Part shown: positions 7,866 to 64,000 of the stretch, in pieces
How the letters are laid out: each line of letters starts with the position of its first letter
Position numbering within the stretch: the first letter of the stretch is position 1
Source: Leuctra nigra
Taxonomy: Eukaryota > Arthropoda > Insecta > Plecoptera > Leuctridae
Length of the DNA: 64,000 nt
Direction of reading: 5' to 3'
NCBI GenBank assembly: GCA_934045905.1
Contig: OW203769.1
Coordinates: forward strand, 14,663,705 to 14,727,704
Notes under the pieces: generated by a model
Databases searched by the model: none
The model's input: the letters and a program-made list of their open reading frames with translations, nothing else
Told to the model about the DNA's origin: nothing
Program-made: the position numbers and the translations under genes

Positions 7866-7874
7866 AAAGTAAGT

Positions 7875-8564
7875 TTGGATAGGATCAGAGTGTATATAAA
7901 TATCTTCCCGGCCTTTTGGGTAGGATCCGAGTGTATATAAATATCTTCTCGGCCTTTTGGATAGGAACAGAGTGTATATAAATAACTTCTCGGCCTTTTT
8001 GATAAGATCAGAGTATATATAAATATCTTCTCGGCCTTTTGGGTAGGATCAGAGTGTATATAAATATCTTCTCGGCCTTTTGAAAGGATCAGAGTGTATA
8101 TAAATATCTTCTCGGCCTTTTGGGTAGGATCAGAGTGTATATAAATATCTTCTCGGCCTTTTGGATAGGATCAGAGTGTATATAAATATCTTCTCGGCCT
8201 TTTGGATAGGATCAGAGTGTATATAAATATCTTCTCGGCCTTTTGGATAGGATCAGAGTGTATATAAATATCTTCTCGGCCTTTTGGATAGGATCAGAGT
8301 GTATATACATATCTTCTCGGCCTTTTGGGTAGGATCAGAGTGTATATAAATATCTTCTCGGCCTTTTGGATAGGATCAGAGTGTATATAAATATCTTCTC
8401 GGCCTTTTGGGTAGGATCAGAGTGTTTATAAATGTCTTCTCGGCCTTTTGGATAGGATCAGAGTGTATATAAATATCTTCTCGGCCTTTTGGGTACGATC
8501 ACAGCGTATATAAATATCTTCTCGGCCTTTTGGATATGATCAGAGTGTATAGAAATATCTGTTC
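7875..8564 (+). repeat. U2-derived 40-bp tandem array, TATA-containing type (about 16-17 units)
   Basis: Each unit reads CTTCTCGGCCTTTTGG, then ATAGGATCAGAGTGTATA, then TAAATAT. Aligned to U2 it covers about nt 5-43: stem-loop I is kept, GATCAAAGTGTAGTAT is recognisable, and the branch-point recognition site is altered to GTATATAAATAT. The last unit runs on to TATCTGTTC, matching U2 further 3'. The units lie on the strand opposite the neighbouring U2 gene. The same array at 48239-49010 has about two more units. Confidence 0.9.
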
Positions 8565-9508
8565 CCCTTGAGCTCACTTGAAATACCTCTCACCCGAGAC
8601 CACCACAGTGTGTGCTCATTACTGATTCTATCTGATTTCTATGTTCCAGGGAAACCAATCTGCAATTGGTTTAGGAACGCACAGACTCATACATCAAGTT
8701 ATGTCGTGCTGAACCAAGATCTAAGAAAATATGCTAACTCATTGATACAACTTATTGACTATTCACATGTGTGTAACTGTATTATAAATTAATATAAGAT
8801 CATTAAATAAAAGCAATTCTCACAAAGCATGTACACTTATGCCATTTTCTTGTGCCTCATTTTAGAATTCCTGTTAAGATTCCCTTCCCACTCTCAGAAG
8901 TAACGTAAATTCCAGCAATATGTGCTGCGGTTTGAAAATATAGACCTTTTGGTAAAGTTCAATATTCATTATTAAATTTTAAAAATATAATTTGATCAAT
9001 TTTGGAGGTAGAAACGCTTTCATGTATTTTCAAGTGACCCGGAAAATATTCACAATAAAATACAATAAAATAAATGAACATTGTTTATACATAGACCGCA
9101 TCACATGGATCACTACTCTTGAAAACAAACAAACATACAAAAAAATGTAACACAAAATTCATAGGAGCAGTGATAGTTTATTGACATTTGAAAGGTACAG
9201 GGAAAGAACGCTATAAGTCCATTTTTTTGAAAGAATGAGTTTTAAGGTGCAATCTTATAGTGATTTTTATGAGCTTTCAGAATATATAATCGGTTTTTAG
9301 AAAATATTTCCACAAAGTCTTGAAAAACGCATTTAAAGTATCGATTAGTATGGAATAGATACAAGGTTTCAACATCAATCTTAGTTTATCTCAGTTTCAA
9401 CCGAATGTGACTTGTAGCTTTCTTTCCCTGTACCCTTAATTTTTTGAAGAGGAAGGTCTTGTAAAATCGTTAGGTAACCAAATTTTATTAAATAAAATGT
9501 TTAGATCT
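8565..9508. other. AT-rich flank, no gene seen
   Basis: No gene, RNA or repeat structure was recognised in this stretch. It is duplicated nearly base for base as 49011-49511 + 50813-51102 + 53458-53610, where two Helitron-like elements have been inserted. It therefore supplies the empty-site sequence for both. Confidence 0.7.
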
Positions 9509-12118
9509 GTATATTGCTATATTTGACTTTTCGGCCTTTTGGCTAAGATGAGAGTGTATAGCTTTGAAATCACTTCTCGGCCTTTTGGCTAAGAAGAGAG
9601 TGTGTCTGTAAAAAAATGTATCGGCCTTTTGGCTAAGATAACAGTATTTAAATAATTCACTTCTCGGCCTTTTGGCTAAGATAACTGTATATTGATATAT
9701 TTCATGTCTCGGCCTTTTAACTAAGATGTGAGTGTATAGCTTAAAAATCACTACTCGGCCATATGGCTACGATAACAGGATTTAATAACCTTCTAGGCCT
9801 AATGGCTAAGATAACTGTATATTGCTATATTTCACTTTTGGCTAGAGTGTATAGCTTTAAAATCACTTCTCGGCCTTTTGGCGAAGAAGAGAGTGTATCA
9901 GTAAAATCATTTATAGGCCTTTTGGCTAAGATAACCGTATATTGATATATTTCACTTCTCGGCTTTTTGGCTACGATGAGAGTTTTTAGCTTTAAAATAA
10001 TTTATCGGCCTTATGGCTACGATAGCGGTATTTAAAAATCTTCTCGGCCTTTTGGCTAAGAAGAGAGTGTATAGGTGTAAACTCACTTCTAGCAGTATTA
10101 GCAGCATTTTTATAATAATAACTTCTGGGCCTTTTGGCTAAGACGAGAGTGTATAGCTTTAAAATCACTTATCAGCCTTATGGCTACGATAGCAGTATTT
10201 AAAAATCTTCTCGGCCTTTTGGCTAAGATAACTGTATATTGCTATATTTCACTTCTCGGCCTTTTGGCTAAGATATCAGTATTTAAAACATTATCATTTA
10301 TCGGCCTTTTTGCTAAGATGAGAGTTTATCGCTTTAAAATCACTTCTTGGCCTTTTGGCGAAGCAGAGAGTGTATCAGTAAAATCATTTATAGGCCTGTT
10401 GGCTAAGATAACTGTATATTGTTATATTTCACTTTTCGGCCTTTTGGCTAAGATGAGAGTGTATAGCTTTATAATCACTTATCGGCCATTTGGCTAAGAA
10501 GAGAGTGTGTCTGTAAAAAAATGTATCGGCCTTTTGTCTAAGATAACAGTATTTAAATAATTCACTTCTCGGCCTTTTGGCAAAGATAACTGTATATTGA
10601 TATATTTCATTTCTCGGCCTTTTGGCTAAGATGAGAGTTTTTAGCTTTAAAATCATTTATCGGCCTTATGGCTACGATAGCAGTATTTAAAAATCTTCTC
10701 GGCCTTTTGGCTAAGAAGATAGTGTATAGGTGTAAAATCACTTCTAGCAGTATTAGCAGCAATTTTATAATAATAACTTCTGGGCCTTTTGGCTAAGACG
10801 AGAGTGTAAAGCTTCGAAATCACTTATCGGCCTTATGGCTACGAAAGCAGTATTTTAAAATCTTCTCGGCCTTTTGGCTAAAATAGCAGTATTAAAAAAA
10901 ATAATCATTTCTCGGCCTTTTGGCTAAAATGAGAGTTTATAGCTTTGAAATCTCTTATCGGCCTTTTGGCTAAGATTAGAGTGTATAGCTTTGAAATCTC
11001 TTCTCGGCCTTTTGGCAAAGATTAGAGTGTATAGCTGTAAAATCATTTATCGGCCTTTTGGCTAAGATAACTATATATTGATATATTTTACTTCTCGGCC
11101 TTTTGGCGAAGGTGAGAGCGAATAGCTCAAAAATCACATCTCGGCCTTTTGGCTAAGATTGCAGTATAAAAATAATTCTTTTCTCGGCCTTTTGGCTAAG
11201 ATAACTGTATATCGATAAATTTCACTTCTCGACCTTTTGGCAAAGATATCAGTATTAAAAAAAAAAAAATTGGCCTTTTGGCTTAGATGAGAATGTAAAG
11301 CTTTGAAAACACTTCTCGGCCTTTTGGCTAAGATAAGAGTGTATAGCTGGAAAATCATTTATCGGCCTTTTGTCTAAAATAACTGTATATTGATATATTT
11401 CATTTCTCGGCCTATTGGCCGAGAGTGAGAGTGTATAGCTTAAAAATCACTACTCGGCCATATGGCTACGATAACAGGATTTAATTAAACTTCTAGGCCT
11501 AATGGCTAAGATAACTGTATATTGCTATATTTTACTTTTGGCTAGAGTGTATAGCTTTAAAACCACTTCTCGGCCTTTTGGCGAAGAAGAGAGTGTATCA
11601 GTAAAATCATTTATAGGCCTTTTGGCTAAGATAACCGTTTATTGATATATTTCACTTCTCGGCCTTTTGGCTACGATGAGAGTTTTTAGCTTTAAAATCA
11701 TTTATCGGCCTTATGGCTACGATAGCGGTATTTAAAAATCTTCTCGGCCTTTTGGCTAAGAAGAGAGTGTAAAGGTGTAAACTCACTTCTAGCAGTATTA
11801 GCAGCATTTTTATAATAATAACTTCTGGGCCTTTTGGCTAAGACGAGAGTGTATAGCTTTAAAATCACTTATCAGCCTTATGGCTACGATAGCAGTATTT
11901 AAAAATCTTCTCGGCCTTTTGGCTAAGATAACTGTATATTGCTATATTTCACTTCTCGGCCTTTTGGCTAAGATATCAGTATTTAAAACATTATCATTTC
12001 TCGGCCTTTTTGCTAAGATAAGAGTTTATCGCTTTAAAATCACTTCTTGGCCTTTTGGCGAAGCAGAGAGTGTATCAGTAAAATCATATATAGGCCTGTT
12101 GGCTAAGATAACTGTATA
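9509..12118 (+). repeat. U2-derived satellite array, 40-47-bp units
   Basis: This is a continuous array of units built on CTCGGCCTTTTGGCTAAGAT, the U2 snRNA 5' stem-loop I region, joined by AT-rich linkers of several types. Common linkers are GAGAGTGTATAGCTTTAAAATCA, AACTGTATATTGATATATTTCA and AGCAGTATTTAAAAATCTT (the first two spelled here without their variants). One recurrent segment lacks U2 similarity (TAGCAGTATTAGCAGCATTT). ORFs rich in 'GLLAKI' or 'LAKRPR' are artefacts of the repeat. Confidence 0.9.
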
Positions 12119-14013
12119 CCCCATAAAAAAACACTTCGTGTAAAAATACCAGCCAAGTCTCTTGTACTAAAAAAAATATATGAAATCTAAAAATTCTGCA
12201 CTAAAAAGTAATGATATCAAAAAATTTGCCAAGTCAAAACTTTATTTGAAAATCAAAAAATACTTGGCGCATCGTGTATATTAATAGCTTAGAAGTATAG
12301 GCCAGATATAAAATACATAAAATATACAAACATATAGTATACCTAAAATGCCCTAAAAAATCGATGCGCCAAGTATTTTTTGATTTTCAAATAAAGTTTT
12401 GACTTGGCAAATTTTTTGATATCATTACTTTTCAGTGCAGAATTTTTAGATTTCATATATTTTTTTTAGTATAAGAGACTTGGCTGGTATTTTTACACGA
12501 AGTGTTTTTTTATGGGGATATCACTCCTTTTTTTAGTTTATTCTAACAACTTGTGACACATATGAAATGAACAATTACTAAATTCTTCAAAAAAATCATC
12601 ACCCTTTACAATTTGGTTGCCACTAATGAATAGCAGTTTATGGTCCTAAATAATTGCTTTAAATGATCTTTCACGAAGAATAGCAAAGGTTTCATTCCAA
12701 TCAGTCAACCCAGTTCCGAGATATGGCAACACTTCGGTTTTCAAAATGGCTGCTGAACTTTCTGCAATGCCACATAGAATTTATTTCTATAAATGATGTG
12801 TATCATTTTAAGCTTTCTGAATATGTATTTATTGTATAGGAGGGAATTATAATAATTTATAAATTTGAATGACGTCATTTCCGGTCTCATAAATAGGAAA
12901 ATTCTATTTGTACTGTTCATATTCCATAGAGATGGCCTTCCGAATCGTTTGGCGCTAGTTTTACACCGATTTGTCTTCCAGTTTTTAAAATATGACGTTA
13001 CTTCCGGTTTAAAAATGGCGGCTGAAATCTCTGACCCCTTGAAGTATATTTTAAACATGATAACAATTTTATAAGCTGTCTCAAATAGTATATTTATTGC
13101 ATCAAAATAAAAATTTGTGAGTTTATTAAAATGTGTGACGTCATTTCCGGTTTAGGTATGGGAAACTGCAAATATTATTGATGATAATACATAAAGTTGA
13201 CCTTCTAAATTGTTTTGCGCTGGTTTCGTTGAAATCTACTTAGCCGTTATTGAGATATGATGTCACTTCCGGTTTCAAAATGGCGGCTTCCGGTTGGTTT
13301 TATAACAAGTCACATGAGACGTCAAAAGTACATACGTTACATAGGTAAATATCAAAATAATCGGTTAAACCTTTGTTGCCAAAAAGCCAATCGATGTATT
13401 TCAAATTTCATTACGTCATTTCCGGTTTCTTTAACATAATGTTCAGTCTTTTGCTACTTATCATGCATATAGATGACCGTCTGAATCGTTTGGCGCAATT
13501 TTCGTTCCAATCGGTCCAGCCGTTGACGAGATATGACGTCACTTCCGGTTTAAAAATGGCGGCACAAAAAATTCATGGGGTGAAGGTTAAATCAGACGCC
13601 AAAAGTGCACACGTGGTAAAAATGTGGGATCAATCGGTTCAGCCGTTTAGGCTGTGGCCTGTTTACCGGATTTGAATTCCAGGAGACTACTACTACTACT
13701 ACTACTGAGATTATTATTATTATTATTATTATTGTTATTATTATGAAAACCGCCCTAAAACACTGTTTTCACGGCCCTCTAGCGCGCAAAGGGCGTAACC
13801 TATTGTTCCCAAATTTGGTATATGTTGTAGGGTGGGCCATAGCTCGAAATTAAGGTATATCGCAACAATGTGAGATTTTCCAATTTTAAGATCCAGTAGG
13901 CCGAAAATGCCACTTTGATGCTTACAGTAAAAGTGGGTTTGCTCCAGCCTTTTTAAATGAGTGTGTGCGCGCGCCGTACGACTTGGCTGGCGTGGAGCGA
14001 CCGCTCCACTAGA
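12119..14013 (+). mobile_element. Helitron-like non-autonomous element, family H1 (copy a)
   Basis: The element sits between A and T of a satellite unit (ACTGTATA | TTGC) with no sizeable target duplication. The 5' part is a foldback: an arm at ~12119-12280 is repeated inverted at ~12361-12516 around a ~75-bp spacer. The middle has several TGACGTCA(C/T)TTCCGG plus ATGGCGGC units (for example at 13534). A (CTA)n/(ATT)n microsatellite lies near 13689-13742. The 3' end has subterminal GACTTGGC, a perfect hairpin GGAGCGACCGCTCC and terminal CTAG, typical of Helitron/Helentron 3' ends. No transposase is encoded, and the ORFs inside are not credible. Confidence 0.75.
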
Positions 14014-15563
14014 TTGCTATATTTCACTTCTCGGCCTTTTGGCTACGATGAGAGTTTTTAGCTTTAAAATCATTTATCGGCCTTATGGCTACGATAGCAG
14101 TATTTAAAAATCTTCTCGGCCTTTTGGCTAAGATATCAGTATTTAAAACATTATCATTTCTCGGCCTTTTTGCTAAGATAAGAGTTTATCGCTTTAAAAT
14201 CACTTCTTGGCCTTTTGGCGAAGCAGAGAGTGTATCAGTAAAATCATTTATAGGCCTGTTGGCTAAGATATCTGTATATTGCTCTATTTCTCTTCTCGGC
14301 CTTTTGGCTAAGATGAGAATGTATAGGTTTATAATCACTTATCGGCCTTTTGGCTAAGAAGAGAGTGTGTCTGTAAAAAAATGTATCGGCCTTTTGTCTA
14401 AGATAACTGTATTTAAATAATTCACTTCTCGGCCTTTTGGCTAAGATAACTGTATATTGATATATTTCATTTCTCGGTCTTTTGGCTAAGATGAGAGTGT
14501 ATAGCTTAAAAATCACTACTCGGCCTTATAGCTACGATAACAGGATTTAATAACCTTCTAGGCCTATTGGCTAAGATAACTGTATATTGCTATATTTCAC
14601 TTTTCGGCCTTTTGGCGAAGAAGAGAGTGTATCAGTAAAATCCATTTTAGGCCTTTTGGCTAAGATAACTGTATATTGATATATTTCAATTCTCGGCCTT
14701 TTGGCTACGATGAGAGTTTTTAGCTTTAAAATCATTTATCGGCCTTATGGCTACGATAGCAGTATTTAAAAATCTTCTCGGCCTTTTCGCTAAGAAGAGA
14801 GTGTATAGGTGTAAAATCACTTCTAGCAGTATTAGCAGCATTTTTATAATAATAACTTCTGGGCCTTTTGGCTAAGACGAGAGTGTAAAGCTTTGAAATC
14901 ACTTATCAGTCTTATGGCTACGATAGCAGTATTTAAAAATCTTCTCGGCCTTTTGGCTTAGATAGCAGTATTTAAAAAAATAATCATTTCTTGGCCTTTT
15001 GGCTAAGATAAGAGTTTATAGCTTTAAAATCTCTTCTCGGCCTTTTGGCTAAGATTAGAGTGTATAGCTTTGAAATCTCTTCTCGGCCTTTTGGCAAAGA
15101 TTAGAGTGTATAGCTGTTAAATCATTTATCGGCCTTTTGGCTAAGATAATTGTATATTGATATATTTTACTTCTCGGCCTTTTGGCGAAGGTGAGAGCGT
15201 ATAGCTCAAAAATCACATCTCGGCCTTTTGGCTAAGATTGCAGTATAAAAATAATTCTTTTCTCGGCCTTTTGGCTAAGATAACTGTATATCGATAAATT
15301 TCACTTCTCGACCTTTTGGCTAAGATATCAGTATTAAAAAAAAAAAATCTCGGCCTTTTGGCTTTGATGAGAATATAAAGCTTTGAAAACACTTCTCGGC
15401 CTTTTGGCTAAGATAAGAGTGTATAGCTGGAAAATCATTTATCGGCCTTTTGTCTAAAATAACTGTATATTGATATATTTCATTTCTCGGCCTTTTGGCT
15501 ACGATGAGAGTGTATAGCTTAAAAATCACTACTCGGCCATATGGCTACGATAACAGGATTTAA
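14014..15563 (+). repeat. U2-derived satellite array
   Basis: The 40-47-bp stem-loop I units continue after the H1 insertion, with the same linkers as the array at 9509. The segment is repeated at 32626-34175 as part of the large duplication. Confidence 0.9.
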
Positions 15564-17359
15564 TTGAGCGAGCGAAGCGAGCGACTCCATTTGGCTCTTT
15601 TAGCACGGACCTCTGTTTTTTTTTTGTTTTTTTTTTTGTTTTTGTTTTTGTATGCTAAAGGAAGCAATAGAAGTCGCACCGTTTCACTGATCGACCTGAA
15701 ATTTTGCACACATGTAAAGACAGCCTTCTCTGTTTGCAGACCCAATTTTTTTTTGAAATCCATCCATTGGTTCATTGTTAAAATAAGTATCTCCTGATAG
15801 CCTAAAAAATGAAAATGGTCTTCGAGAAATGTGATCAAACTCATATTTAGCATGGTCAGTAAGACCAACAATGTCACTTATTTTACAAATTTTCAGCCGA
15901 ATCTGTCAAGAAAGTATGCACTTATTGACATTTTTAATAGCTGTCAGAAATGAAACATTGAAAATGAATGTCTTTCCAATGCAACTGAATCTGATTTGCT
16001 TTAGGTACAAGAGTGTTTTGATGGTATGTACACTTTTTTAGTGAAAAGCAGATATTTTTATGTTTATTGAGTTGATCAAATTTGAATAATTCAATTTGGA
16101 TCATAGTTTCCAACAAATCATTTCGAGTTTTTAAGGACCTTGATTGTCTTTTCGTCAATTCGTAGTTCTGATGGCCGTGCCTCCCGTGTTTCTACTTGGC
16201 TGATTTTGCATCCAGGAGGGATTAGAAACATAAGCTCACATTTCAATAATATCATTGAGTGGCGTTTGTTCTCTTCTAGCGTTCACACGTCATTCCAAAT
16301 CTCTACTGCATTTTGCTTCTTTTCGTTGATAATTTTGGCAATTTGGTGTACTTTGTGAAGGTATTAGTAAAATTGAATCGCTTTTAAAGCATAGATATTA
16401 GGTATCTACAGTTTTTGTCCAGGGGATTGATTATTTCAAATTATTTTCTTCTTGGAAACGTTGGATTCATTCCGTTTCTAAACTAGGTAGTTACTATTTT
16501 ACCTGATCCGTTTTTTTGTGTGGAACTTTGATTCCTTTCGCTTATTAGTTGAAAGGTGTTTACTTTATTTTCATATTTGCGAAGTTTTGTTCAAGATTCA
16601 TTTCGTAACATTACGACATTGAATACATTACGTCTTTGAGCACACATTTCGTGCATTTCAAACATTGATCACACAAATATTATTGTACTTTAATTAGGTA
16701 GGTACTCTACTTCTTATTTTTTCATTACCTATCTTATCCCTATTTAAACATGCCGAAAAATGGAAAGACTTCTGCTAGAATGAAAGCCATAAAGGCGAAA
16801 AAGCGTCTGCGTGAAATTGAAGATCAAGAAACTGACGAAGCTAAATCTAAAAGGTTGAAACAAAATGTCGTTAATAATAAAGCATCAAGGAGCAAAGAGA
16901 CCCCCGACCAGACTGCTGCAAGGAGATACTCAAACAATCAACGCAATACCCGCTCTCGTGCAGCGGGTATTGCCGATTGACCGACCAACTAAAAACTTCG
17001 CATGGTAATTGGTAGCCACATTTAAGGTATTTTTGCCAATTTTCAGTCTAATTTGTAGTTATTTTCAAAAGTTTATCATATCATATGAGTGGTCCCAGGT
17101 ATATTGTTTGAAGAATATCATGTGATTTTTGAAACTTAACAATGAACCGTTCAATCAAAGGTTTAATCGATCAACTTAAAACTTAGCAAGGTTATTGGGA
17201 CCAATATTTTTGGAAATTTTGGAGATATTTATACAAGTCTGTGACAAAATTCAAGAATTATTGGCTTTTAATGACATTTTCGATAGACATAATTTCGGTT
17301 CGAGGTGTTGCGTGTATCCGTGCTCGCTCATCAACGCGTTACTCAGAGCGTTTTCCTAG
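15564..17359 (+). mobile_element. Helitron-like element, family H2 (copy a)
   Basis: The ends are defined by the inverted copy at 56166-58242, which interrupts an otherwise known satellite unit. The 5' end is TTGAGCGAGCGAAGCGAGCG; the 3' end has an AACGC/GCGTT hairpin and terminates TTTTCCTAG. Insertion is between A and T without a target duplication, as for Helitrons. It carries one small conserved ORF (16750-16980). The left and right satellite flanks belong to different unit types, so the site was rearranged after or during insertion. Confidence 0.6.
16750..16980 (+). CDS. 76-aa basic protein of Helitron-like element H2
   Basis: The ORF is very rich in K/R, with NLS-like clusters (KAKKRLR, KSKRLK) and a C-terminal ETPDQTAARRYSNNQRNTRS segment. 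This resembles the STPR-type repeats found at the N-termini of some insect Helitron helicase-like proteins and of FMBP-1-like DNA-binding proteins; that comparison is from memory of the families, not a search. The identical protein is present in the inverted copy at 56701-56931 and the duplicated copy at 35362-35592, and the 5' context CCTATTTAAACATG is shared. It may be the remaining N-terminal exon of a larger transposase. No helicase or Rep domain follows. Confidence 0.45.
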   Translation: MPKNGKTSARMKAIKAKKRLREIEDQETDEAKSKRLKQNVVNNKASRSKETPDQTAARRYSNNQRNTRSRAAGIAD

Positions 17360-17664
17360 TATAATAATTACTTCTGGGCCTTTTGGCTAAGACAAGAGTG
17401 TATAGCTTTAAAATCACTTATCAGCCTTATGGCTACGATAGCAGTATTTAAAAATCTTCTCGGCCTTTTGGCTAAGATAACTGTATATTGCTATATTTCA
17501 CTTCTCAGCCTTTTGGCTAAGATATCAGTATTTAAAACATTATCATTTCTCGGCCTTTTTGCTAAGATGAGAGTTTATCGCTTTAAAATCACTTCTTGGC
17601 CTTTTGGCGAAGCAGAGAGTGTATCAGTAAAATCATTTATAGCCTGTTGGCTAAGATAACTGTA
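17360..17664 (+). repeat. Short U2-derived satellite island between H2 and H1
   Basis: About seven units of the 40-47-bp satellite separate the two elements. The last is interrupted at ACTGTA by the next H1 element. Confidence 0.88.
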
Positions 17665-21505: not shown

Positions 21506-21625
21506 TGTGATCTCACAGGGAAGTAACGTGTTTCCTGATGATGAGTCAACAATATCCGCGTTGCCAGCTGCACTTGTAACATTATCTTATTTCAAATAGT
21601 ACGTATCCCAATGCATCATGCAATT
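21506..21625. other. Unique segment between 63-bp satellite and U2-derived array
   Basis: About 120 bp with no similarity to the rest of the window and no recognisable feature. With the 63-bp satellite it replaces ~13 bp (ATATTGCTATATT) present at the duplicate site near 39430. Confidence 0.5.
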
Positions 21626-24600
21626 GTCACTTTCGGCCTTTTGGCTAAGATGAGAATGTATAGGTTTATAATCACTTATCGGCCTTTTGGCTAAGAAGAG
21701 AGTGTGTCTGTAAAAAAATGTATCGGCCTTTTGTCTAAGATAACAGTATTTAAATAATTCACTTCTCGGCCTTTTGGCTAAGATAACTGTATATTGATAT
21801 ATTTCATTTCTCGGCCTTTTGGCTAAGATGAGAGTGTATAGCTTAAAAATCACTACTCGGCCTTATGGCCACGATAACAGGATTTAATAACCTTCTAGGC
21901 CTATTGGCTAAGATAACTGTATATTGCTATATTTCACTTTTCGGCCTTTTGGCTAGAGTGTATAGCTTTAAAATCACATTTTGGCCTTTTGGCGAAGAAG
22001 AGAGTGTATCAGTAAAATCCTTTTTAGGCCTTTTGGCTAGGATAACTGTATATTGATATATTTCACTTCTCGGCCTTTTGGCTACGATGAGTGTTTTTAG
22101 CTTTAAAATCACTTATCGGCCTTATGGCTACGATAGCAGTATTTAAAAATCTTCTCGGCCTATTGGCTAAGAAGAGTGTGTATAGGTGTAAAATCACTTC
22201 TAGCAGTATTAGCAGCATTTTTTTAATAATAACTTCTGGGCCTTTTGGCTAAGATGAGAGTGTATAGCTTTTAAATCACTTATCAGCCTTATGGCTACGA
22301 TAGCAGTATTTAAAAATCTTCTCGTCCATTTGGCTAAGATAACTGTATATTGCTATATTTCACTTCTCGGCCTTTTGGCTAAGATGAGATTGTATAGCTT
22401 TGAAATCTCTTCTCGGCCTTTTGGCTAAGATTAGAGTGTATAGCTTTGAAATCTCTTCTCGGCCTTTTTGTTTAGATTAGAGTGTATAGCTGTAAAATCA
22501 ATTATCGGCCTTTTGGCTAAGATAACTGTATATTGATAAATTTCACTTCTCGGCCTTTTGGCTAAGATAGCAATATTAAAAAAAATTGTTATTTGGCCTA
22601 TTGGCTAAGATGAGAATGTAAAGCTTTGAAAACACATCTCGGCCTTTTGGCTAAGATTAGAGTGTATAGCTGTAAAATCATTTATCAGCCTTTTGGCTAA
22701 GATAACTGTATATTGATATATTTCACTTTTCGGCCTTTTGGCTAGAGTGTATAGCTTTAAAATAACTCTCGGCCTTTTGGCGAAGAAGAGAGTGTATCAG
22801 TAAAATCTGATATAGGCCTTTTGGCTAAGATAACTGTATTTTTATATAGTTCACTTCTCGGCCTTTTGGCTTAGACGAGAGTGTAAAACTTTAAAAACAC
22901 TTATCGGCCTTATGGCTACGAAAGCAGTATTTTAAAATCTTCTCTGCCTTTTGGCTAAGATAACTGTATATTGCTATTTTTACTTCTCGGCCTTTTGCTA
23001 AGATAGCAGTATTTAAAAAATAATCACTTCTCGGCCTTTTGGCTAAGATGAGAGTGTATAGCTTTAAAATCACTTCTTGGCCATTTGGCGAAGCAGAGAG
23101 TGTATCAGTAAAATCATTTATAGGCCTGTTGGCTAAGATAACTGTATATTGCTACATTTCACTTTTCGGCCTTTTGGCTAAGCTGAGAGTGTATAGCTTT
23201 AAAATTTCTTCTCGACCTTTTGGCTAAGAAGAGAGTGTGTCTGTAAAAAATTGTATCGGCCTTTTGGCTAAGATAGCAGTATTTGAATAATACACTTCTC
23301 GGCCTTTTGGCTAAGATAACTGTATATTGATATATTTCATTTCTCGGCCTTTTGGTTAAGATGATAGAGTATATTAAAAAATCACTACTCGGCCTTATGG
23401 CTACGATAACAGGATTTAATAACCTTCTAGGCCTATTGGCTAAGATAACTGTATATTGCTATATTTCACTTTTCGGCCTTTTGGCTAGAGTGTATAGGTG
23501 TAAAATCACTACTAGCAGTATTAGCAGCATTTTTATAATAATAACTTCTCGGCCTTTTGGCTAAGATGAGAGTGTATAGCTTTGAAATCTCTTCTCGGCC
23601 TTTTGGCTAAGATTAGAGTGTATAGCTTTGAAATCTTTTCTCGGCCTTTTGGTTAAGATTAGAGTGTATAGCTGTAAAATCATTTATCGGCACTTCTCGG
23701 CCTTTTGGCTAAGATAGCAGTATTTAAAAAAAATTATCATTTCTCGGCCTTTTGGCTAAGATGAGAGTGTATAGCTTTAAAATCACTTATCGGCCTTTTG
23801 GCTACGATAGCAGTATTTAAAAATCTTCTCGGTTTTTTAGCTAAGATAACTGTATATTGCTTTATTTCACGTCACGGCTTTTTGGCTAAGATGAGAGTGT
23901 ATAGCTTTAAAATCTCTTCTCGGCCTTTTGTCTTAGATAAGAGTGTATAGCTTTGAAATCTCTTCTCGGCCTTTTGGCTAAGATAACTGTCTATTGATAT
24001 ATTTCACTTCTCGGCCTTTAGGGGAAAGATGAGAGTGTATAGCTTTAAAATCACTTCTCGGCCTTTTGGCTAAGATAACTGTATATTGATAAATTTCACT
24101 TCTCGGCCTTTTGGCTAAGATTAGAGTGTATAGCTGTAAAATCATTTATCAGCCATTTGGCTAAGATAACTGTATAATGATATATTTCACTTTTCGGCCT
24201 TTTGGCTAGAGTGTATAGCTTTAAAATAACTCTCGGCCTTTTGGCGAAGAAGAGAGTGTATCAGTAAAATCTGTGGCTACGATAGCAGTATTTAAAAATC
24301 TTCTCGTCCATTTGGCTAAGATAACTGTATATTGCTATATTTCACTTCTCGGCCTTTTGGCTAAGATAGCAGTATTTAAAAAATAATCATTTCTCGGCCT
24401 TTTGGCTAAGATGAGAGTGTATAGCTTTGAAATCTCTTCTCGGCCTTTTAACTAAGTTAAGAGTGTATAGCTTTGAAATCTCTTCTCGGCCTTTTGGCTA
24501 AGATAACTGTATATTAATATATTTCACTTCTCGGCCTTTTGGCGAAGGTGAGAGTGTATAGCTTAAAAATCACTTCTCGGCCTTTTGGCTAAGATTGCAG

Positions 24601-30600: not shown

Positions 30601-30733
30601 AAACATTATCATTTCTCGGCCTTTTTGCTAAGATAAGAGTTTATCGCTTTAAAATCACTTCTTGGCCTTTTGGCGAAGCAGAGAGTGTATCAGTAAAATC
30701 ATATATAGGCCTGTTGGCTAAGATAACTGTATA
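21626..30733 (+). repeat. Largest U2-derived satellite array (9.1 kb)
   Basis: Stem-loop I units of 40-47 bp are uninterrupted throughout. Evidence of higher-order duplication is clear: 23490-24274 matches 27351-28135 at a constant offset of 3861 bp, including the private variant GTCACGGCTTTTTGG. Segments around 22585 and 29711 also match. From 30023 the array enters the 9.4-kb duplication that began at 11408. No gene is present. Confidence 0.9.
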
Positions 30734-48225: not shown

Positions 48226-48238
48226 TATAAAGTAAGTT

Positions 48239-49010
48239 TGGATAGGATCAGAGTGTATATAAATATCTTCCCGGCCTTTTGGGTAGGATCCGAGTGTATA
48301 TAAATATCTTCTCGGCCTTTTGGATAGGAACAGAGTGTATATAAATAACTTCTCGGCCTTTTTGATAAGATCAGAGTGTATATAAATATCTTCTCGGCCT
48401 TTTGGGTAGGATCAGAGTGTATATGAATATCTTCTCGGCCTTTTGGGTAGGATCAGAGTGTTTATAAATGTCTTCTCGGCCTTTTGGATAGGATCAGAGT
48501 GTATATAAATATCTTCTCGGCCTTTTGGAAAGGATCAGAGTGTATATAAATATCTTCTCGGCCTTTTGGGTAGGATCAGAGTGTATATAAATATCTTCTC
48601 GGCCTTTTGGATAGGATCAGAGTGTATATAAATATCTTCTCGGCCTTTTGGATAGGATCAGAGTGTATATAAATATCTTCTCGGCCTTTTGGATAGGATC
48701 AGAGTGTATATAAATATCTTCTCGGCCTTTTGGATAGGATCAGAGTGTATATACATATCTTCTCGGCCTTTTGGGTAGGATCAGAGTGTATATAAATATC
48801 TTCTCGGCCTTTTGGATAGGATCAGAGTGTATATAAATATCTTCTCGGCCTTTTGGGTAGGATCAGAGTGTTTATAAATGTCTTCTCGGCCTTTTGGATA
48901 GGATCAGAGTGTATATAAATATCTTCTCGGCCTTTTGGGTACGATCACAGCGTATATAAATATCTTCTCGGCCTTTTGGATATGATCAGAGTGTATAGAA
49001 ATATCTGTTC
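48239..49010 (+). repeat. U2-derived 40-bp tandem array, TATA-containing type (about 18 units)
   Basis: Same array as 7875-8564, with the same first units (CCCGGCC variant) and last unit (ATATCTGTTCCCC) but about two more internal units. The block GTGTTTATAAATGTCTTCTC occurs twice here and once in the other copy, consistent with unequal exchange. Confidence 0.9.
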
Positions 49011-53457: not shown

Positions 53458-53610
53458 TAGATACAAGGTTTCAACATCAATCTTAGTTTATCTCAGTTTC
53501 AACCGAATGTGACTTGTAGCTTTCTTTCCCTGTACCCTTAATTTTTTGAAGAGGAAGGTCTTGTAAAATCGTTAGGTAACCAAATTTTATTAAATAATAA
53601 TGTTTAGATC

Positions 53611-56165
53611 TGTATATTGCTATATTTGACTTTTCGGCCTTTTGGCTAAGATGAGAGTGTATAGCTTTGAAATCACTTCTCGGCCTTTTGGCTAAGAAGA
53701 GAGTGTGTCTGTAAAAAAATGTATCGGCCTTTTGGCTAAGATAACAGTATTTAAATAATTCACTTCTCGGCCTTTTGGCTAAGATAACTGTATATTGATA
53801 TATTTCATGTCTCGGCCTTTTAACTAAGATGTGAGTGTATAGCTTAAAAATCACTACTCGGCCATATGGCTACGATAACCGGATTTAATAACCTTCTAGG
53901 CCTAATGGCTAAGATAACTGTATATTGCTATATTTCACTTTTGGCCAGAGTGAATAGCTTTAAAATCACTTCTCGGCCTTTTGGCGAAGAAGAGAGTGTA
54001 TCAGTAAAATCATTTATAGGCCTGTTGACTAAGATAACTGTATATTGCTATATTTCACTTTTCGGCCTTTTGGCTAAGATGAGAGTGTATAGCTTTATAA
54101 TCACTTAACGGCCTTTTGGCTAAGAAGAGAGTGTGTCTGTAAAAAAATGTATCGGCCTTTTGTCTAAGATAACAGTATTTAAATAATTCACTTCTCGGCC
54201 TTTTGGCTAAGATAACTGTATATTGATATATTTCATTTCTCGGCCTTTTGGCGACGATGAGAGTTTTAAGCTTTAAAATCATTTATCGGCCTTATGGCTA
54301 CGATAGCGGTATTTAAAAATCTTCTCGGCCTTTTGGCTAAGAAGAGAGTGTATAGGTGTAAAATCACTTCTAGCAGTATTAGCAGCATTTTTATAATAAT
54401 AACTTCTGGGCCTTTTGGCTAAGACGTGAGTGTATAGCTTTAAAATCACTTATCAGCCTTATGGCTACGATAGCAGTATTTAAAAATCTTCTCGGCCTTT
54501 TGGCTAAGATAACTGTATATTGCTATATTTCCATTCTCGGCCTTTTGGCTAAGATATCAGTATTTAAAACATTATCATTTCTCGGCCTTTTTGCTAAGAT
54601 AAGAATTTATCGCTTTAAAATCACTTCTTGGCCTTTTGGCGAAGCAGAGAGTGTATCACTTATCAGCCTTATGGCTACGATAGCAGTATTTAAAAATCTT
54701 CTCGGCCTTTTGGCTAAGATAACTGTATATTGCTATATTTCCATTCTCGGCCTTTTGGCTAAGATATCAGTATTTAAAACATTATCATTTCTCGGCCTTT
54801 TTGCTAAGATAAGAATTTATCGCTTTAAAATCACTTCTTGGCCTTTTGGCGAAGCAGAGAGTGTATCACTTATCAGCCTTATGGCTACGATAGCAGTATT
54901 TAAAAATCTTCTCGGCCTTTTGGCTAAGATAACTGTATATTGCTATATTTCACTTTTCGGCCTTTTGGCTAAGATGAGAGTGTATAGCTTTATAATCACT
55001 TATCGGCCTTTTGGCTAAGAAGAGAGTGTGTCTGTAAAAAAATGTATCGGCCTTTTGTCTAAGATAACAGTATTTAAATAATTCACTTCTCGGCCTTTTG
55101 GCTAAGAAAACTGTATATTGATATATTTCATTTCTCGGCCTTTTGGCTAAGATGAGAGTGTATAGCTTAAAAATCACTACTCGGCCTTATGGCCACGATA
55201 ACAGGATTTAATAACCTTCTAGGCCTATTGGCTAAGATGACTGTATATTGCTATATTTCACTTTTCGGCCTTTTGGCTAGAGTGTATAGCTTTAAAATCA
55301 CATTTTGGCCTTTTGGCGAAGAAGAGAGTGTATCAGTAAAATCCTTTTTTAGGCCTTTTGGCTAAGATAACAGTATATTGATATATTTCACTTCTCGGCC
55401 TTTTGGCTACGATGAGTGTTTTTAGCTTTAAAATCATTTATCGGCCTTATGGCTACGATAGCAGTATTTAAAACTCTTCTCGGCCTTTTGGCTAAGAAGA
55501 GAGTGTATAGGTGTAAAATCACTTCTAGCAGTATTAGCAGCATTTTTATAATAATAACTTCTGGGCCTTCTGGCTAAGACGAGAGTGTAAAGCTTTGAAA
55601 TCACTTATCAGCCTTATGGCTACGATAGCAGTATTTAAAAATCTTCTCGGCCTTTTGGCTAAGATAGCAGTATTTAAAAAAATAATCATTTCTCGGCCTT
55701 TTGGCTAAGATGAGAGTTTATAGCTTTGAAATCTCTTCTCGGCCTTTTGGCTAAGATTAGAGTATATAGCTTTGAAATCTCTTCTCGGCCTTTTGGCAAA
55801 GATTAGAGTGTATAGCTGTAAAATTATTTATCGGCCTTTCGGCTAAGATAACTGTATATTGATATATTTTACTTCTCGGCCTTTTGGCGAAGGTGAGAGC
55901 GTATAGCTCAAAAATCATATCTCGGCCTTTTGGCTAAGATTGCAGTATAAAAATAATTCTTTTCTCGGCCTTTTGCTAAGATAACTGCATATATCGATTA
56001 ATTTCACTTTTCGACCTTTTGGCTAAGATATCAGTATTAAAAAAAAAAAAAAAATCTCGGCCTTTTGGCTTAGATGAAAATGTAAAGCTTTGAAACACTT
56101 CTCGGCCTTTTGGCTTAGATTAGAGTGTATAGCTGGAAAATCATTTATCGGCCTTTTGTCTAAAA
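53611..56165 (+). repeat. U2-derived satellite array with a 210-bp internal duplication
   Basis: Stem-loop I units. A block starting TATCAGCCTTATGGC occurs at 54451, 54661 and (partly) 54871, an exact 210-bp direct period spanning five units. The first ~260 bp match 9509-9770, and the last ~1.2 kb match 39436-40652. Confidence 0.9.
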
Positions 56166-58242
56166 CTAGGAAAACGCTCTGAGTAACGCGTTGATGAGCG
56201 AGCACGGATACACGCAACACCTCGAACCGAAATTATGTTTATCGAAAATGTCATTAAAAGCCAATAATTCTTGAATTTCGTCACAGACTTGTATAAATAT
56301 CTCCAAAATTTCCAAAAATATTGGTCCCAATAACCTTGCTAAGTTTTAAGTTGATCGATTAAACCTTTGATTGAACGGTTCCTTGTTAAGTTTCAAAAAT
56401 CACAGGATATCTTTCAAACAATATACCTGGGACCACTCATATGATATGATATTACTGTGGACACAATATCAGATCAATCTGTTAAACGGTCATTATTAGT
56501 TTCATTTCGTTTGAAACTTTCTGCTCTAACTACCTTGCCTTGAACTAAAGATTCGATGTCGCCGTGAATTTGACAGCCAACACACAAAATGTCCCTAAAA
56601 TTACAAAAACTTTTGAAAATAACTACAAATTAGACTGAAAATTGGCAAAAATACCTTAAATGTTGCTACCAATTACCATGCGAAGTTTTTAGTTGGTCGG
56701 TCAATCGGCAATACCCGCTGCACGAGAACGGGTATTGCGTTGATTGTTTGAGTATCTCCTTGCAGCAGTCTGGTCGGGGGTCTCTTTGCTCCTTGATGCT
56801 TTATTATTAACGACATTTTGTTTCAACCTTTTAGATTTAGCTTCGTCAGTTTCTTGATCTTCAATTTCACGCAGACGCTTTTTCGCCTTTATGGCTTTCA
56901 TTCTAGCAGAAGTCTTTCCATTTTTCGGCATGTTTAAATAGGGATAAGATAAGTAATGAAAAAGTAAGAAGTAGAGTACCTACCTAATTAAAGTACAATA
57001 ATATTTGTGTGATCAATGTTTGAAATGCACGAAATGTGTGCTCAAAGACGTAATGTATTCAATGTCGTAATGTTACGAAATGAATCTTGAACAAAACTTC
57101 GCAAATATGAAAATAAAGTAATCACCTTTCAACTAATAAGCGAAAGGAATCAAAGTTCCACACAAAAAACGGATCAGGTAAAATAGTAACTACCTAGTTT
57201 AGAAACGGAATGAATCCAACGTTCCACAATTAAAACAAGACAACGTAATGTTTTGAACTGAATGAATCAAAACTTTAAAAAAAAAAAAGCAACCTTCAAG
57301 GAAATGTCAGGCTAGTCAGAAGCTCAGAAACGGAATAAATCCAACGTTTCCAAGAAGAAAATAATTTGAAATAATCAATCCCCTGGACAAAAACTGTAGA
57401 TACCTAATATCTATGCTTTAAAAGCGATTCAATTTTACTAATACCTTCACAAAGTACACCAAATTGCCAAAATTATCAACGAAAAGAAGCAAAATGCAGG
57501 AGAGATTTGGAATGACGTGTGAACGCTAGAAGAGAACAAACGCCACTCAATGATATTATTGAAATGTGAGCTTATGTTTCTAATCCCTCCTGGATGCAAA
57601 ATCAGCCAAGTAGAAACACGGGAGGCACGGCCATTAGAACTACGAATTGACGAAAAGACAATCAAGGTCCTTAAAAACTCGAAATGATTTGTTGGAAACT
57701 ATGATCCAAATTGAATTATTCAAATTTGATCAACTCAATAAACATAAAAATATCTGCTTTTCACTAAAAAACTGTACATACCATCAAAACACTCTTGTAC
57801 CTAAAGCAAATCAGATTCAGTTGCATTGGAAAGACATTCATTTTCAATGTTTCATTTCTGACAGCTATTAAAAATGTCAATAAGTGCATACTTTCTTGAC
57901 AGATTCGGCTGAAAATTTGTAAAATAAGTGACATTGTTGGTCTTACTGACCATGCTTAATATTAGTTTGATCACATTTCTCGAAGACCATTTTCATTTTT
58001 TAGGCTATCAGGAGATACTTATTTTAACAATGAACCAATGGATGGATTTCAAAAAAAAATTGGGTCTGCAAACAGAGAAGGTTGTCTTTACATGTGTGCA
58101 AAATTTCAGGTCGATCGGTGAAACGGTGCGACTTCCATTGCTTCCTTTAGCATACAAAAACAAAAACAAAAAAAAAAACAAAAAAAAAAACAGAGGTCCG
58201 TGCTAAAAGAGCCAAATGGAGTCGCTCGCTTCGCTCGCTCAA
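56166..58242 (-). mobile_element. Helitron-like element, family H2 (copy b, longer form, inverted)
   Basis: It interrupts a satellite unit whose empty form GTCTAAAATAACTG is common in the window (for example near 11371), so both ends are clear: minus-strand 5' TTGAGCGAGCG and 3' TTTTCCTAG, inserted between A and T. It is ~280 bp longer than the other H2 copies because it keeps segments near 56448-56600 and 57230-57340 that they lack. It carries the same 76-aa ORF. Confidence 0.65.
56701..56931 (-). CDS. 76-aa basic protein of H2 (independent copy)
   Basis: The protein is the same as at 16750-16980, although this is an independent insertion in opposite orientation with many differences elsewhere (indels of 100-150 bp). 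That pattern suggests constraint or a very recent common source. It is K/R-rich with an STPR-like C-terminal segment. No other Helitron protein domain is present in the element. Confidence 0.45.
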   Translation of the reverse strand: MPKNGKTSARMKAIKAKKRLREIEDQETDEAKSKRLKQNVVNNKASRSKETPDQTAARRYSNNQRNTRSRAAGIAD

Positions 58243-61200
58243 TAACTGTATATTGATATATTTCATTTCTCGGCCTTTTGGCTAAGATGAGAGTTTATAG
58301 CTTAAAAATCACTACTCGGCCTTATGGCTACGATAACAGGATTTAATAACCTTCTAGGCCTATTGGCTAAGATAACTGTATATTGCTATATTTCACTTTT
58401 CAGCCTTTTGGCTACGATGAGAGTTATTAGCTTAAAAATCACTTATTAGCCTTATGGCTACGATAGCAGTATTTAAAAATCCTCTCGGCCTTTTGGCTAA
58501 GATAATTGTATATTGCTATATTTCACTTCTCGGCCTTTTGGCTAAGATAGCAGTATTTAAAAAATAATCATTTCTCGGCATTTTGGCTAAGATGAGAGTG
58601 TAAAGCTTTGAAATCTCTTCTCGGCCTTTTTGCTAAGATTAGAGTGTATAGCTTTGAAATCTCTTCTCGGCCTTTTGGTTAAGATTAGAGTGTATAGCTG
58701 TAAAATCATTTATCGGCCTTTTGTCTAAGATAACTGTATATTGATATATTTCACTTCTCGGCCTTTTGGCTAAGATGAGAGTGTATAGCTTTGAAATCTC
58801 TTCTCGGCCTTTTGGCTAAGATAACTGTATATTGATAAATTTCACTTCTCGGCCTTTTGGCTAAGATAGCAGTATTAAAAAAAAATCATTCATCGGCCTT
58901 CTGGCTAAGATAACATTATTTAAATAATTCACTTCTGGGCCTTTTGGCTAAGATGAGAGTGTATAGCTTTAAAATCACTTTTTGGCCTTTTTACTTAGAT
59001 GAGTGTGTATAGCTTTAAAATCACTTGGCCTTATGGCTACGATAGCAGTATTTAAAAATCTTCTCGGTCTTTTGGCTAAGATAACTGCCTATTGCTATAT
59101 TTCACTTCTCGGCCTTTTGGCTAAGATGAGAGTGTATAGCTTTGAAATCTCTTCTCGGCCTTTTGGCTAAGATTAGAGTGTATAGCTGTAAAAACATTTA
59201 TCGGCCTTTTGGCAAGATAACTGTATATTGATATATTTAACTTCTCGGCCTTTTGGTGAAGGTGAGAGTGTATAGCTTAAAAATCACATCTCGGCCTTTT
59301 GGCTAAGATAACTGTATATCGATAAATTTCACTTCACGACCTTTTGGCTAAGATAGCAGTATTAAAAAAAAATCATTTCACGGCCTTTTGGCTAAGATAA
59401 CTGTATATTGATATATTTCACTTTTCGCCCTTTGGGCTAGAGTGTATAGCTTTAAAATAACTCTCGGCGTTTTGGCGAAGAAAAGAGTGTATCAGTAAAA
59501 TCATTTATAGGCCTTTTGGCTAAGATAACTGTATATTGATATATTTCACTCCTCGGCCTTTTGGCTACGATGAGAGTTTTTAGCTTTAAAGTCACTTATC
59601 GGCCTATTGGCTACCATAGCTGTATTTAAAAATCTTCTCAGCCTTTTGGCTAAGAAGAGAGTGTATAGGAGTAAAATCACTTCTAGCAGTATTAGCAGCA
59701 TTTTTATAATAATAACTTCTGGGCCTTTTGGCTAAGACGAGAGTGTATATCTTTAAAATCACTTATCGGCCTTATGACAACGATAGCAGTATTTAAAAAT
59801 CTTCTCGGCCTTTTGGCTAAGATAACTGTATATTGATATATTTAACTTCTCGGCCTTTTGGTGAAGGTGAGAGTGTATAGCTTAAAAATCACATCTCGGC
59901 CTTTTGGCTAAGATTGCAGTATTAAAATAATTCTTTTCGGCCTTTTGGCTAAGATAACTGTATATCGATAAATTTCACTTCTCGACCTTTTGGCTAAGAT
60001 AGCAGTATTAAATAAAAAAAATCTCGGCCTTTTGGCTATGATGAGAGTGAATAGCTAAAAATCACTACTCGGCCTTATGGCTACAATACCAGGATTTAAA
60101 TTTCTTTCTAGGCCTATTGGCTAAGATAACTGTATATTTCTATATTTCACTTTTCGGCTTTTTGGCTAGAGTGTATAGCTTTAAAATCACTTCTCGGCCT
60201 TTTGGCGAAGAAGAGAGTGTGTCAGTAAAATCATTGATAGGCCTTTTGGCTAAAATACTTGTATATTGATATATTTCACTTCTCGGCATTTTGGCTAAGA
60301 TTAGAGTGTATAGCTTTAAAATCACTTCTCGGCCTTTTGGCCAAGAAGAGAGTGAGTCTGTAAAAAAATGTATCGGCCTTTTGGCTAAGATAACAGTATT
60401 TAAATAATTCACTTCTCGGCCTTTTGGCTAAGGGAACTGTATATTGATATATTTCATTTCTCGGCCTTTTGGTTAAGATGAGAGTGTATAGCTGTAAAAT
60501 CATTTATCGGCCTCGTGTCTAAGATAACTGTATATTGATATATATCATTTCTCGGCCTTTTGGCTTAGATGAGAGTGTATAGCTTTGAATTCTCTACTCG
60601 GCCTTTTAGCTAAGATTAGAGTGTATAGCTGTAAAATCATTATCGGCCTTTTGGCTAAGATAACTGTATATTGATATAATTCACTTTTCGGCCTTTTGGC
60701 TAGAGTGTATAGCTTTAAAATCAATTCTCGGCCTTTTGGCGAAGAAGAGAGTGTATTAGTAAAATCATTAATAGGCCTTTTGGCTAAGATAACTGTATAT
60801 TGATATATTTCACTTCTCGGCCTTTTGGCTACGATGAGAGTTTTTAGCTTTAAAATCATTTATCGGCCTTATGGCTACGATAGCAGTATTTAAAAATCTT
60901 CTCGTCCATTTGGCTAAGATAACTGTATATTGCTATATTTCACTTCTCGGCCTTTTGGCTAAGATAGCAGTATTTAAAAAATAATCATTTCTCGGCCTTT
61001 TGGCTAAGATGAGAGTGTATAGCTTTGAAATCTCTTCTCGGCCTTTTAACTAAGTTAAGAGTGTATAGCTTTGAAATCTCTTCTCGGCCTTCTGGCTAAG
61101 ATAACTGTATATTGATATATTACACTTCTCGGCCTTTTGGCGAAGGTGAGAGTGTATAGCTTAAAAATCACTTCTCGGCCTTTTGGCTAAGATTGCAGTA

Positions 61201-64000
61201 TTAAAATAATTCTTTACTCGGCCTTTTGGCTAAGATAACTGTATATTGATAAATTTCACTTCTCGACCTTTTGGCTAAGATAGCAGAATTAGATATAAAA
61301 AATCTCGGCCTTTTGGCTAAGATGAGAATGTAAAGCTATGAAAACACTTCTCGGCCTTTTGGCTAAGATGAGAGTGAATGCCTGAAAAATTATTTATCGG
61401 CCTTTTGTCAAAAATAACTGTATATTGATATATTTCATTTCTCGGCCTTTTGGATAAAATGAGAGTGTATAGCTTAAAAATCTCTTCTCGGCCTTTTGGC
61501 TAAGATTACAGTATTTAAATAATTCACTTCTCGGCCTTTTTGCTAAGATAACTGTATATTGATATATTTCATTTTTCGGCCTTTTGGTTAAGATAGCAGT
61601 ATTAAAAAAAAAAAATCTCGGCCTTTTGGCTTAGATGAGAATGTAAAGCTTTGAAAACACTTCTCGGCCTTTTGGTTAAGATGAGAGTGTATAGCTTAAA
61701 AATACACTCTCGGCCTTATGGCTACGATATCAGGTTTTAATAACCTTCTAGGCCTATTGGCTAAGATAACTGTATATTGCTATATTTCACTTCTCAGCCT
61801 TTTGGCTACGATGAGAGTTTTAAGCTTTAAAATTATTTATCGGCCTTATGGCTACGATAGCAGTATTTAAAAATCTTTTCGGCCTTTTGGCTAAGAAGAG
61901 TGTGTATAGGTGTAAAATCACTTCTAGCAGTATTAGCAGCATTTTTATAATAATAACTTCTGGGCCTTTTGGCTAAGATGAGAGTGTATTGCTTTTAAAT
62001 CACTTATCAGCCTTATGGCTAAGATTAGAGTGTATAGCTTTGGAATCTCTTCTCGGCCTTTTGGCTTAGATTAGAGTGTATAGCTGTAAAATCATTTATC
62101 GGCCTTTTGGCTTAGATAACTGTATATTGATATATTTCACTTCTTGGCCTTTTGGCTAAGATGAGAGTGTATAACTTTGAAATCGCTTCTCGGCCTTTTG
62201 GCTAAGATGAAAGTGTATAGCTGTAAAATCATTTATCGGCCTTTTGTCTAAGATAACTGTATATTGCTATATTTCACTTTTCGGCCTTTTGGCTAAGATG
62301 AGAGTGTATAGCTTTAAAATTTTTTCTCGACCTTTTGGCTAAGAAGAGAGTGTGTCTGTAAAAAATTGTATCGGCCTTTTGGCTAAGATAACAGTATTTG
62401 AATAATTTTCTTCTCGGCCTTTAGGCTAAGATAACTGTATATTGATATATTTCATTTCTCGGCCTTTTGGTTAAGATGAGAGTGTATAGCTAAAAAATCA
62501 CTACTCGGCCTTATGGCTACGATAACAGGATTTAATAACCTTCTAGGCCTATTGGCTAAGATAACTGTATATTGATATATTTCACTTCTCGGCCTTTTGG
62601 CAACGATGAGAGTTTTTAGCTTTATAATCATTTATCGGCCTTATGGCTACGATAGCAGTATTTTAAAATCTTCTCAGCCTTTTGGCTAAGAAGAGAGTGT
62701 ATAGGTGTAAAATCACTTCAAGCTGTATTAGCAGCATTTTTATAATAATAACTTCTGGGCCTTTTGGCTAAGATAAGAGTGTATTGCTTTTAAATCACTT
62801 TTCAGCATTATGGCTACGATAGTAGTATTTAAAAATCTTCTCGTCCATTTGGCTAAGATAACTGTATATCGAAAAATTTCACTTCTCGACCTTTTGGCTA
62901 AGATATCAGTATTAAAAAAAAAAAAAATCTCGGCCTTTTGGCTTGGATGAGAATGTAAAGCTTTGAAATCTCTTCTCGGCCTTTTGGCTAAGATTAGAGT
63001 GTATAGCTGGAAAATCATTTATCGGCCTTTTGTCTAAAATAACTGTATATTGATATATTTCATTTCTCGGCCTTTTTGCTAAGATGAGAGTGTATAGCTT
63101 CAAAATCACTACTCGGCCTTATGGTTACGATAACAGGATTTAATAACCTTCTAGGCCTATTGGCTAAGATAACTGTATATTGCTATATTTCACTTTTCGG
63201 CCTTTTGGCTATGATGAGAGTTATTAGCTTTAAAATCACTTATCAGCCTTATGGCTACGATAGCAGTATTTAAAAATCCTATCGGGCTTTTGACTAAGAT
63301 AATTGTGTATTGCTATATTTCACTTCTCGGCCTTTTGGCTAAGACAGCAGTATTTAAAAAATAATCATTTCTCGGCCTTTTAGCTAAGATGAGAGTGTAT
63401 AGCTTTGAAATCTCTTCTCGGCCTTTTGGCTAAGATTAGAGTGTATAGCTTTGAAATCTCTTCTCGGCCTTTTGGTTAAGATTAGAGTGTATAGCTGTAA
63501 AATCATTTATCGGCCTTTTGTCTAAGATAACTGTATATTGATATATTTCACTTCTCGGCCTTTTGGCTAAGATAAGATTGTATAGCTTTGGAATCTCTTC
63601 TCGGCCTTTTGGCTAAGATTAGAGTGTATAGCTTTGAAATCTCTTCTCGGCATTTTGGTTAAGATTAGAGTGTATAGCTGTAAAATCATTTATCGGCCTT
63701 TTGGCAAAGATAACTGTATATTGATATATTTCACTTCTCGGCCTTTTGGCAAAGGTGAGAGTGTATAGCTTTAAAATCGCTTCTCGGTCTTTTGGCTAAG
63801 ATAACTGTATATTGATAAATTTCACTTCTCGGCCTTTTGGCTAAGATAGCAGTATTAAAAATAAATCATTTATCGGCCTTCTGGCTAAGATAACATTATT
63901 TAAATAATTCACTTCTGGGCCTTTTGGCTAAGATGAGAGTGTATAGCTTTAAAATCACTTTTTGGCCTTTTGGCTTAGATGAGTGTGTATAGCTTTAAAA
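58243..64000 (+). repeat. U2-derived satellite array running to window end
   Basis: 5.8 kb of stem-loop I units with the linker types seen elsewhere, including recurrent TAGCAGTATTAGCAGCATTT segments (59690, 61925). No gene or inserted element was found, and the array continues beyond the window. Confidence 0.9.

Follow-up and report, generated by a model that had tools for sequence, protein, structure and literature searches.

Satellite repeats derived from the U2 snRNA gene have been named before, as the available part of Kojima and Jurka (2015; PMC4640811) lists U2_sat as U2 gene-derived satellite repeats in Ciona. As far as that text goes, the satellite we describe here shares with U2_sat its described source, a U2 gene, as well as a genome context in which non-LTR elements from the Utopia/NeSL/YURE group seek out U2, whereas the occasional insertion of YURE reported there for U2_sat has no counterpart seen in the arrays here. 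Another tandem repeat from a multigene RNA locus is the rDNA-derived satellite of tomato (PMC2679016, in the portion available), although its source is ribosomal DNA and the source here is U2. As U2_sat is already named (PMC4640811), this kind of satellite is known, and the statement in the initial annotation that no satellite built from U2 had been described cannot be upheld. What the Leuctra nigra satellite adds to this known kind is a further example, one whose history can be read.

The window, which is the whole stretch of L. nigra DNA that was analysed, comprises 64,000 nucleotides, and all positions given here refer to it. Eleven satellite blocks make up 26,115 bp or 40.8 % of it, in agreement with the earlier estimate of 11 blocks, about 26 kb and about 41 %. 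They are head-to-tail arrays of a short unit, up to 9.1 kb long, and all lie on the plus strand, as had also been noted, opposite to the two U2 genes of the window:

6668..6726, minus strand: U2 gene 1, nt 1-59 only, followed by a retrotransposon
40853..40964, minus strand: U2 gene 2, nt 1-112, followed by an assembly gap

The arrays were mapped as follows, with the method given in brackets where it was recorded for the feature:

7874..8560 (core block 7904-8540), plus strand: 41-bp U2-derived array, copy 1, type G (TRF, core search, unit typing)
9512..12117 (core block 9527-12109), plus strand: main satellite array 1, piece 1 (TRF, core search, unit typing)
14013..15563 (core block 14027-15551), plus strand: main array 1, piece 2 (core search, unit typing)
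17360..17663 (core block 17371-17657), plus strand: main array 1, piece 3 (core search, unit typing)
21627..30733 (core block 21630-30724), plus strand: main array 1, piece 4, with 196 core sites (TRF, core search)
32625..34175 (core block 32639-34163), plus strand: main array 1, piece 5, a copy of piece 2 with 0 substitutions in 1,525 compared bp
35972..36275 (core block 35983-36269), plus strand: main array 1, piece 6, a copy of piece 3 with 0 substitutions in 287 compared bp
39430..40652 (core block 39446-40651), plus strand: main array 1, piece 7, bounded by the 200-N gap and sharing 98.1 % identity with 54937-56165
48237..49006 (core block 48267-48986), plus strand: 41-bp U2-derived array, copy 2 (TRF, core search)
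53610..56165 (core block 53630-56164), plus strand: main array 2, piece 1 (TRF, core search)
58242..64000 (core block 58266-63980), plus strand: main array 2, piece 2, reaching the window end (TRF, core search)

A 20-mer core gave 415 matches on both strands with ≤2 mismatches, compared with 0.00 expected in 100 shuffles. Searching with a 23-mer core at ≤7 edits returned 588 plus-strand and 8 minus-strand sites; at the same threshold, a single mononucleotide shuffle of the window yielded 14. Six of the minus-strand sites have 7 edits, while the other two have 0 edits and are the U2 genes themselves, so that the core is present unchanged in authentic U2. Plus-strand sites with ≤6 edits number 579, of which 577 fall inside the 11 blocks; a block was defined by at least three units, and two isolated 6-edit sites (19644, 38256) were excluded.

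The satellite sits in a duplicated U2 locus. The DNA upstream of U2 gene 1 and of U2 gene 2 is 99.4 % identical over 907 bp, and in both places a 41-bp array comes after this upstream DNA, with a large array farther along. Between the eighth satellite block and U2 gene 2 lies an assembly gap of exactly 200 N (40653-40852), and block and gene are linked across this gap only. A 6.1-kb insert at 41868-47996 parts the upstream DNA of U2 gene 2 from its 41-bp array. It has 402-bp inverted ends at 90 % identity, and its flanks overlap by 5 bp in copy 1 (TGTAC, 7629-7633), as a target duplication would give. Within the span of this insert we observed a tRNA-like Rfam match on the minus strand (46148-46220, 38.6 bits), perhaps a tRNA-derived SINE; ARAGORN called no tRNA, this match included. 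A 239-aa frame at 44571-45290 is without Pfam match and presumably resembles the C-terminal part of a LINE. At 49512-49881, a stretch of about 370 bp forms an inverted repeat with itself at 87-88 %.

Both large arrays were continuous before insertions cut them. The inserts with clean junctions are the following:

12118..14012, plus strand: Helitron-like insertion, ends GTGGAGCGACCGCTCCACTAG
15564..17359, plus strand: second-family insertion, TTGAGCGAGC...CTAG
56166..58241, minus strand: second-family insertion, inverted, ends placed to about 2 bp

After removal of the inserts, the joined flanks match unbroken array over 120 ungapped bp at 95 % (12117/14013), 97.5 % (56164/58242) and 84 % (15562/17360), and empty-site evidence was taken from this ungapped test only. 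For a further insert, the third by position, the joined flanks 36271/39430, cut four bases short, matched at 96.4 % in the gapped test (6 gap columns), but the ungapped test of the counterpart flanks 17652-17669/39424-39435 gave no spanning match. Joining a 41-bp array to a large array (8556/9512, 49002/53612) yielded gapped matches of 80-84 % with 18-26 gap columns, which decide nothing either way because 293-349 matches span any join in the gapped test.

Helitrons have a 5' TC end and a 3' hairpin followed by CTRR, use an A/T target without target duplication and carry a Rep/helicase gene. CTAG is present in both insert families here, a clear hairpin in one only, and the empty sites are restored without duplication, the target being A^T in one family and T^A in the other. 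As the 5' ends AYCCC and TTGAGC are unlike the Helitron TC, and as the three clean inserts contain no frame of at least 120 aa and hence no Rep/helicase gene, we use the label "Helitron-like" only. The start of the first insert (12119-12517, about 400 bp) likewise forms an inverted repeat with itself at 87-88 %. In the third insert, which occupies 17664-21626 in copy 1, the right end is not clean: a 63-bp tandem array (20814-21501, 10.9 copies at 98 %) directly follows the 3' end of the insert, where in copy 2 the satellite directly adjoins. A 118-bp tandem repeat lies inside this insert and its copy (18899-19668 and 37511-38280).

A second copy of the segment 11,862-20,814 lies at about 30,480-39,429, and an alignment of the two over 8,950 bp shows 12 mismatches. 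Since blocks 6 and 7 repeat blocks 3 and 4 without a single substitution, the blocks cannot be counted as independent. With insertions and this duplication of about 8.9 kb accounting for the remaining blocks, two 41-bp and two large arrays are what underlies the 11 blocks. That scaffolding or false duplication during assembly made much of the array is very unlikely in our view. Such an artefact would fit the near-identity of the repeated segment, the gap length of exactly 200 N and the start of this gap at the very point at which an insert is present in the homologous copy, but differences at 0.7-11.6 % of the sites in head or tail separate 12 of the 14 array pairs examined, the insert junctions are clean, and false joins do not create U2-headed repeats. 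The doubt is confined to the large copy of about 8.9 kb and the link across the N gap.

Within the arrays, the commonest lengths among 541 units of ≤60 bp are 46 (190 units), 45 (146), 39 (59), 44 (47), 41 (33) and 43 bp (29). They measure mostly 39-47 bp, close to the 40-47 bp given initially, with a full spread of 35-56 bp. Eight type consensus sequences were drawn from the units, and every unit was assigned to its nearest type (A 201, B 124, C 65, E 53, D 39, G 32, F 16 and H 11 units). Type G composes both 41-bp arrays and is absent elsewhere in the window; the other seven core-bearing types are intermixed in the large arrays with the recurring orders ADEBAC, DBAC-AC and ACBEAAAB. Furthermore, 25 long intervals each hide one unit that escaped the core search. 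For 19 of them this unit is a monomer without core, ending in AGCAGTATTAGCAGCATTTTTATAATA or close to that, which has been co-amplified, and in the other six the missed unit has its core cut or altered. The large arrays are thus higher-order repeats of seven monomer types and a headless one. The run of Tandem Repeats Finder (TRF) suggested initially recovered the short units but also periods of about 85 to 313 bp, which indicate higher-order structure in the satellite. Alpha satellite is likewise a higher-order-repeat satellite and shares with the L. nigra arrays several monomer types, their recurring order, recent block copies and inserted transposons, whereas the units here measure about 46 bp and have an snRNA head, and nothing here points to a centromere.

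Type A is identical to U2 nt 1-36 at 33 of 36 positions and type G at 31 of 36. The description of the core as U2 stem-loop I is therefore right as to its derivation from U2 and too narrow as to its extent, since the likeness spans nt 1-36 and goes beyond stem-loop I alone; in the units it ends around nt 36-41. In 7800-12200, Rfam gives 11 matches at E up to 0.1. Every one of them is to U2 on the plus strand, stays under the gathering score and falls within the 46-bp family, with no match inside the 41-bp array of this stretch. The 41-bp array has a distinctive unit at its right edge:

8518..8564, plus strand: edge unit of the 41-bp array, continuing into TATCTGTTC, which is U2 nt 38-46

Within the window, TATCTGTTC has just two plus-strand occurrences, at 8556 and 49002, where the two 41-bp arrays have their edges, and on the minus strand it is confined to the two U2 genes. 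This clue to the origin, the strongest single one, was spotted by eye, and the bases missing from the ordinary unit number five (TGTTC). The edge unit seems to preserve a remnant of the U2 copy that founded the satellite, and both edges go back to one and the same event. Beyond nt 46 the likeness to U2 at the array edge is not significant, as shuffles equal the score in 26 % and 5 % of cases. An alignment of the type A tail end to U2 nt 51-60 after a deletion (TAGCTTTAAA, 7 of 10 positions) was rejected, being equalled by 25 % of shuffles. This tail end, matching U2 no better than chance, is what one would expect if the core owed its likeness to chance or convergence and came from a source other than U2; with 33 of 36 nt matching, U2 nt 38-46 continued in the edge unit, U2 alone among the Rfam families scoring in 7800-12200, and the satellite adjoining U2 genes, we give that explanation practically no credence. 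The derivation of the repeat from the U2 5' end, as proposed at the outset, is supported by the head match, the edge unit and the Rfam matches.

Types A, G and H carry AGAGTGTAT at the site of U2 AAAGTGTAG, and type D does so partly, which suggests a single founder for A, G, H and in part D. Types B, C, E and F are without AGAGTGTAT, so the case for one founder does not extend to them. Three stretches left of the arrays gave low alignment scores of 24-29, taken without a shuffle control, against the 110 bp upstream of U2, and an inherited promoter is therefore unsupported. Exact-pattern scans for tandem U2 heads found 0 loci in the viral, bacterial and archaeal contigs covered, a result of little weight given that scope.

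The element that breaks U2 gene 1 contains one long frame:

1140..6317, minus strand: 1,725-aa open frame with a reverse transcriptase and a C-terminal region aligned to R2 proteins

This frame holds RVT_1 (E 5.2e-30), and among proteins of solved structure R2 is its best match (E 6.9e-68), with LINE-1 chains weaker at about 1e-16. Its C-terminus aligns to R2 (E 2.8e-7) with the PD..D residues retained, and a check for an N-terminal zinc finger gave a C2H2 match at E 0.072, under the curated cut-off. The retrotransposon is oriented like the gene and comes after U2 nt 59, its 5' flank being U2 nt 1-59. It is like Utopia, as described in the accessible part of PMC4640811, in combining a reverse transcriptase and an R2-type restriction-like endonuclease in one frame and in being inserted in U2. 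According to the same text, the 3' flank of Utopia begins at U2 nt 39, and reptile Utopia generates 20-bp target duplications whereas arthropod Utopia generates none (PMC4640811). The 5' flank here ends at nt 58/59, just where a 20-bp duplication combined with a 3' flank that begins at nt 39 would place its end, so that the junction departs from the arthropod rule if the host is an arthropod. U2 nt 39-58 occur in the window only inside the two genes, and the 3' end of the retrotransposon lies beyond the window; as the 3' flank falls outside, we name the element "Utopia-like" only. It belongs to the R2 group and appears to resemble Utopia, a U2-targeting family. A search of viral contigs for relatives returned one locus with 27 % identity over residues 606-683, outside the reverse transcriptase and endonuclease, which was left out of account.

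The U2 likeness of the units ends at nt 36-41, at the Utopia target with its 3' flank from nt 39, and a Utopia-like element is present in the same locus. A U2-seeking retrotransposon might have founded the satellite, with cuts at the Utopia target and a tandem-copying repair turning a piece of nt 1-38 into the unit, but we consider this unlikely.

As to function, it had been proposed that transcribed units act as a decoy, titrating U2-associated factors as repeated stem-loop I RNAs. U2 nt 11-20 vary in just 1-13 % of heads per position, as such a decoy might require (520 heads, after 21 of 541 with more than 7 ungapped differences were dropped), and one-sided stem changes preserve pairing in 83 of 279 cases (30 %) compared with 19 % for random changes. 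The remaining 196 of these 279 changes, counted at seven stem pairs in 207 distinct heads, nevertheless break the pair, two-sided changes left 6 pairs intact and 7 broken and hence give no covariation, and headless monomers have been retained and amplified. The proposal finds no support in these data, and a role as RNA decoy seems highly improbable.

Heads are more alike than tails. Across the 21 pairs of types A-G, with H excluded, heads diverge by 0.113 edits per site and tails by 0.450. In recent copies the difference is slight, as 120 of 2932 head sites differ compared with 108 of 1927 tail sites, a ratio of 0.73 (p = 0.018) obtained from five non-overlapping pairs chosen post hoc from 14, the nine dropped including two without differences. 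This lower divergence could reflect slow selection on the head, or conversion or homogenisation through the common head. If selection keeps the heads alike, the head may serve as a DNA box to which a protein binds, either a satellite-binding protein of the host or the U2-targeting element's own, and ratios such as those above would be expected if head variants are purged over time. We regard a DNA box as an unlikely explanation, as only three of the 14 pairs reach p < 0.05, all three using the array stretch 21623-24163, while two are reversed, one is equal and two are without differences. Headless monomers persist, conversion among heads predicts the same pattern, and finding units by their heads biases the set towards head likeness, 25 intervals holding a unit missed in this way. 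The lack of stem compensation and the amplification of headless monomers favour passive satellite DNA, which, judged by its sequence, the satellite most likely is.

Taken as a whole, the satellite was probably born from the U2 5' end of a gene copy inverted in the U2 locus and is now passive DNA. Its starting point would have been a U2 copy on the plus strand, facing the other way from the resident genes, and the edge unit running into U2 nt 38-46 indicates that this copy was seemingly duplicated in tandem over nt ~5-41, presumably by slippage or repair. The duplicated unit would then have been expanded and reshuffled by unequal exchange. The large arrays were cut by insertions and copied along with parts of the U2 locus, and they persist today as satellite DNA that probably has no function.

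Should a retrotransposon have founded the satellite after all, the element would build satellites from the gene it attacks, and if the link to Utopia were true, U2-targeting elements and U2-derived satellites would share one cause. The origins of satellites are seldom legible, and here a single window holds the gene of origin together with an edge unit resembling the founder, monomer types that have diverged and the insertions that broke the arrays.
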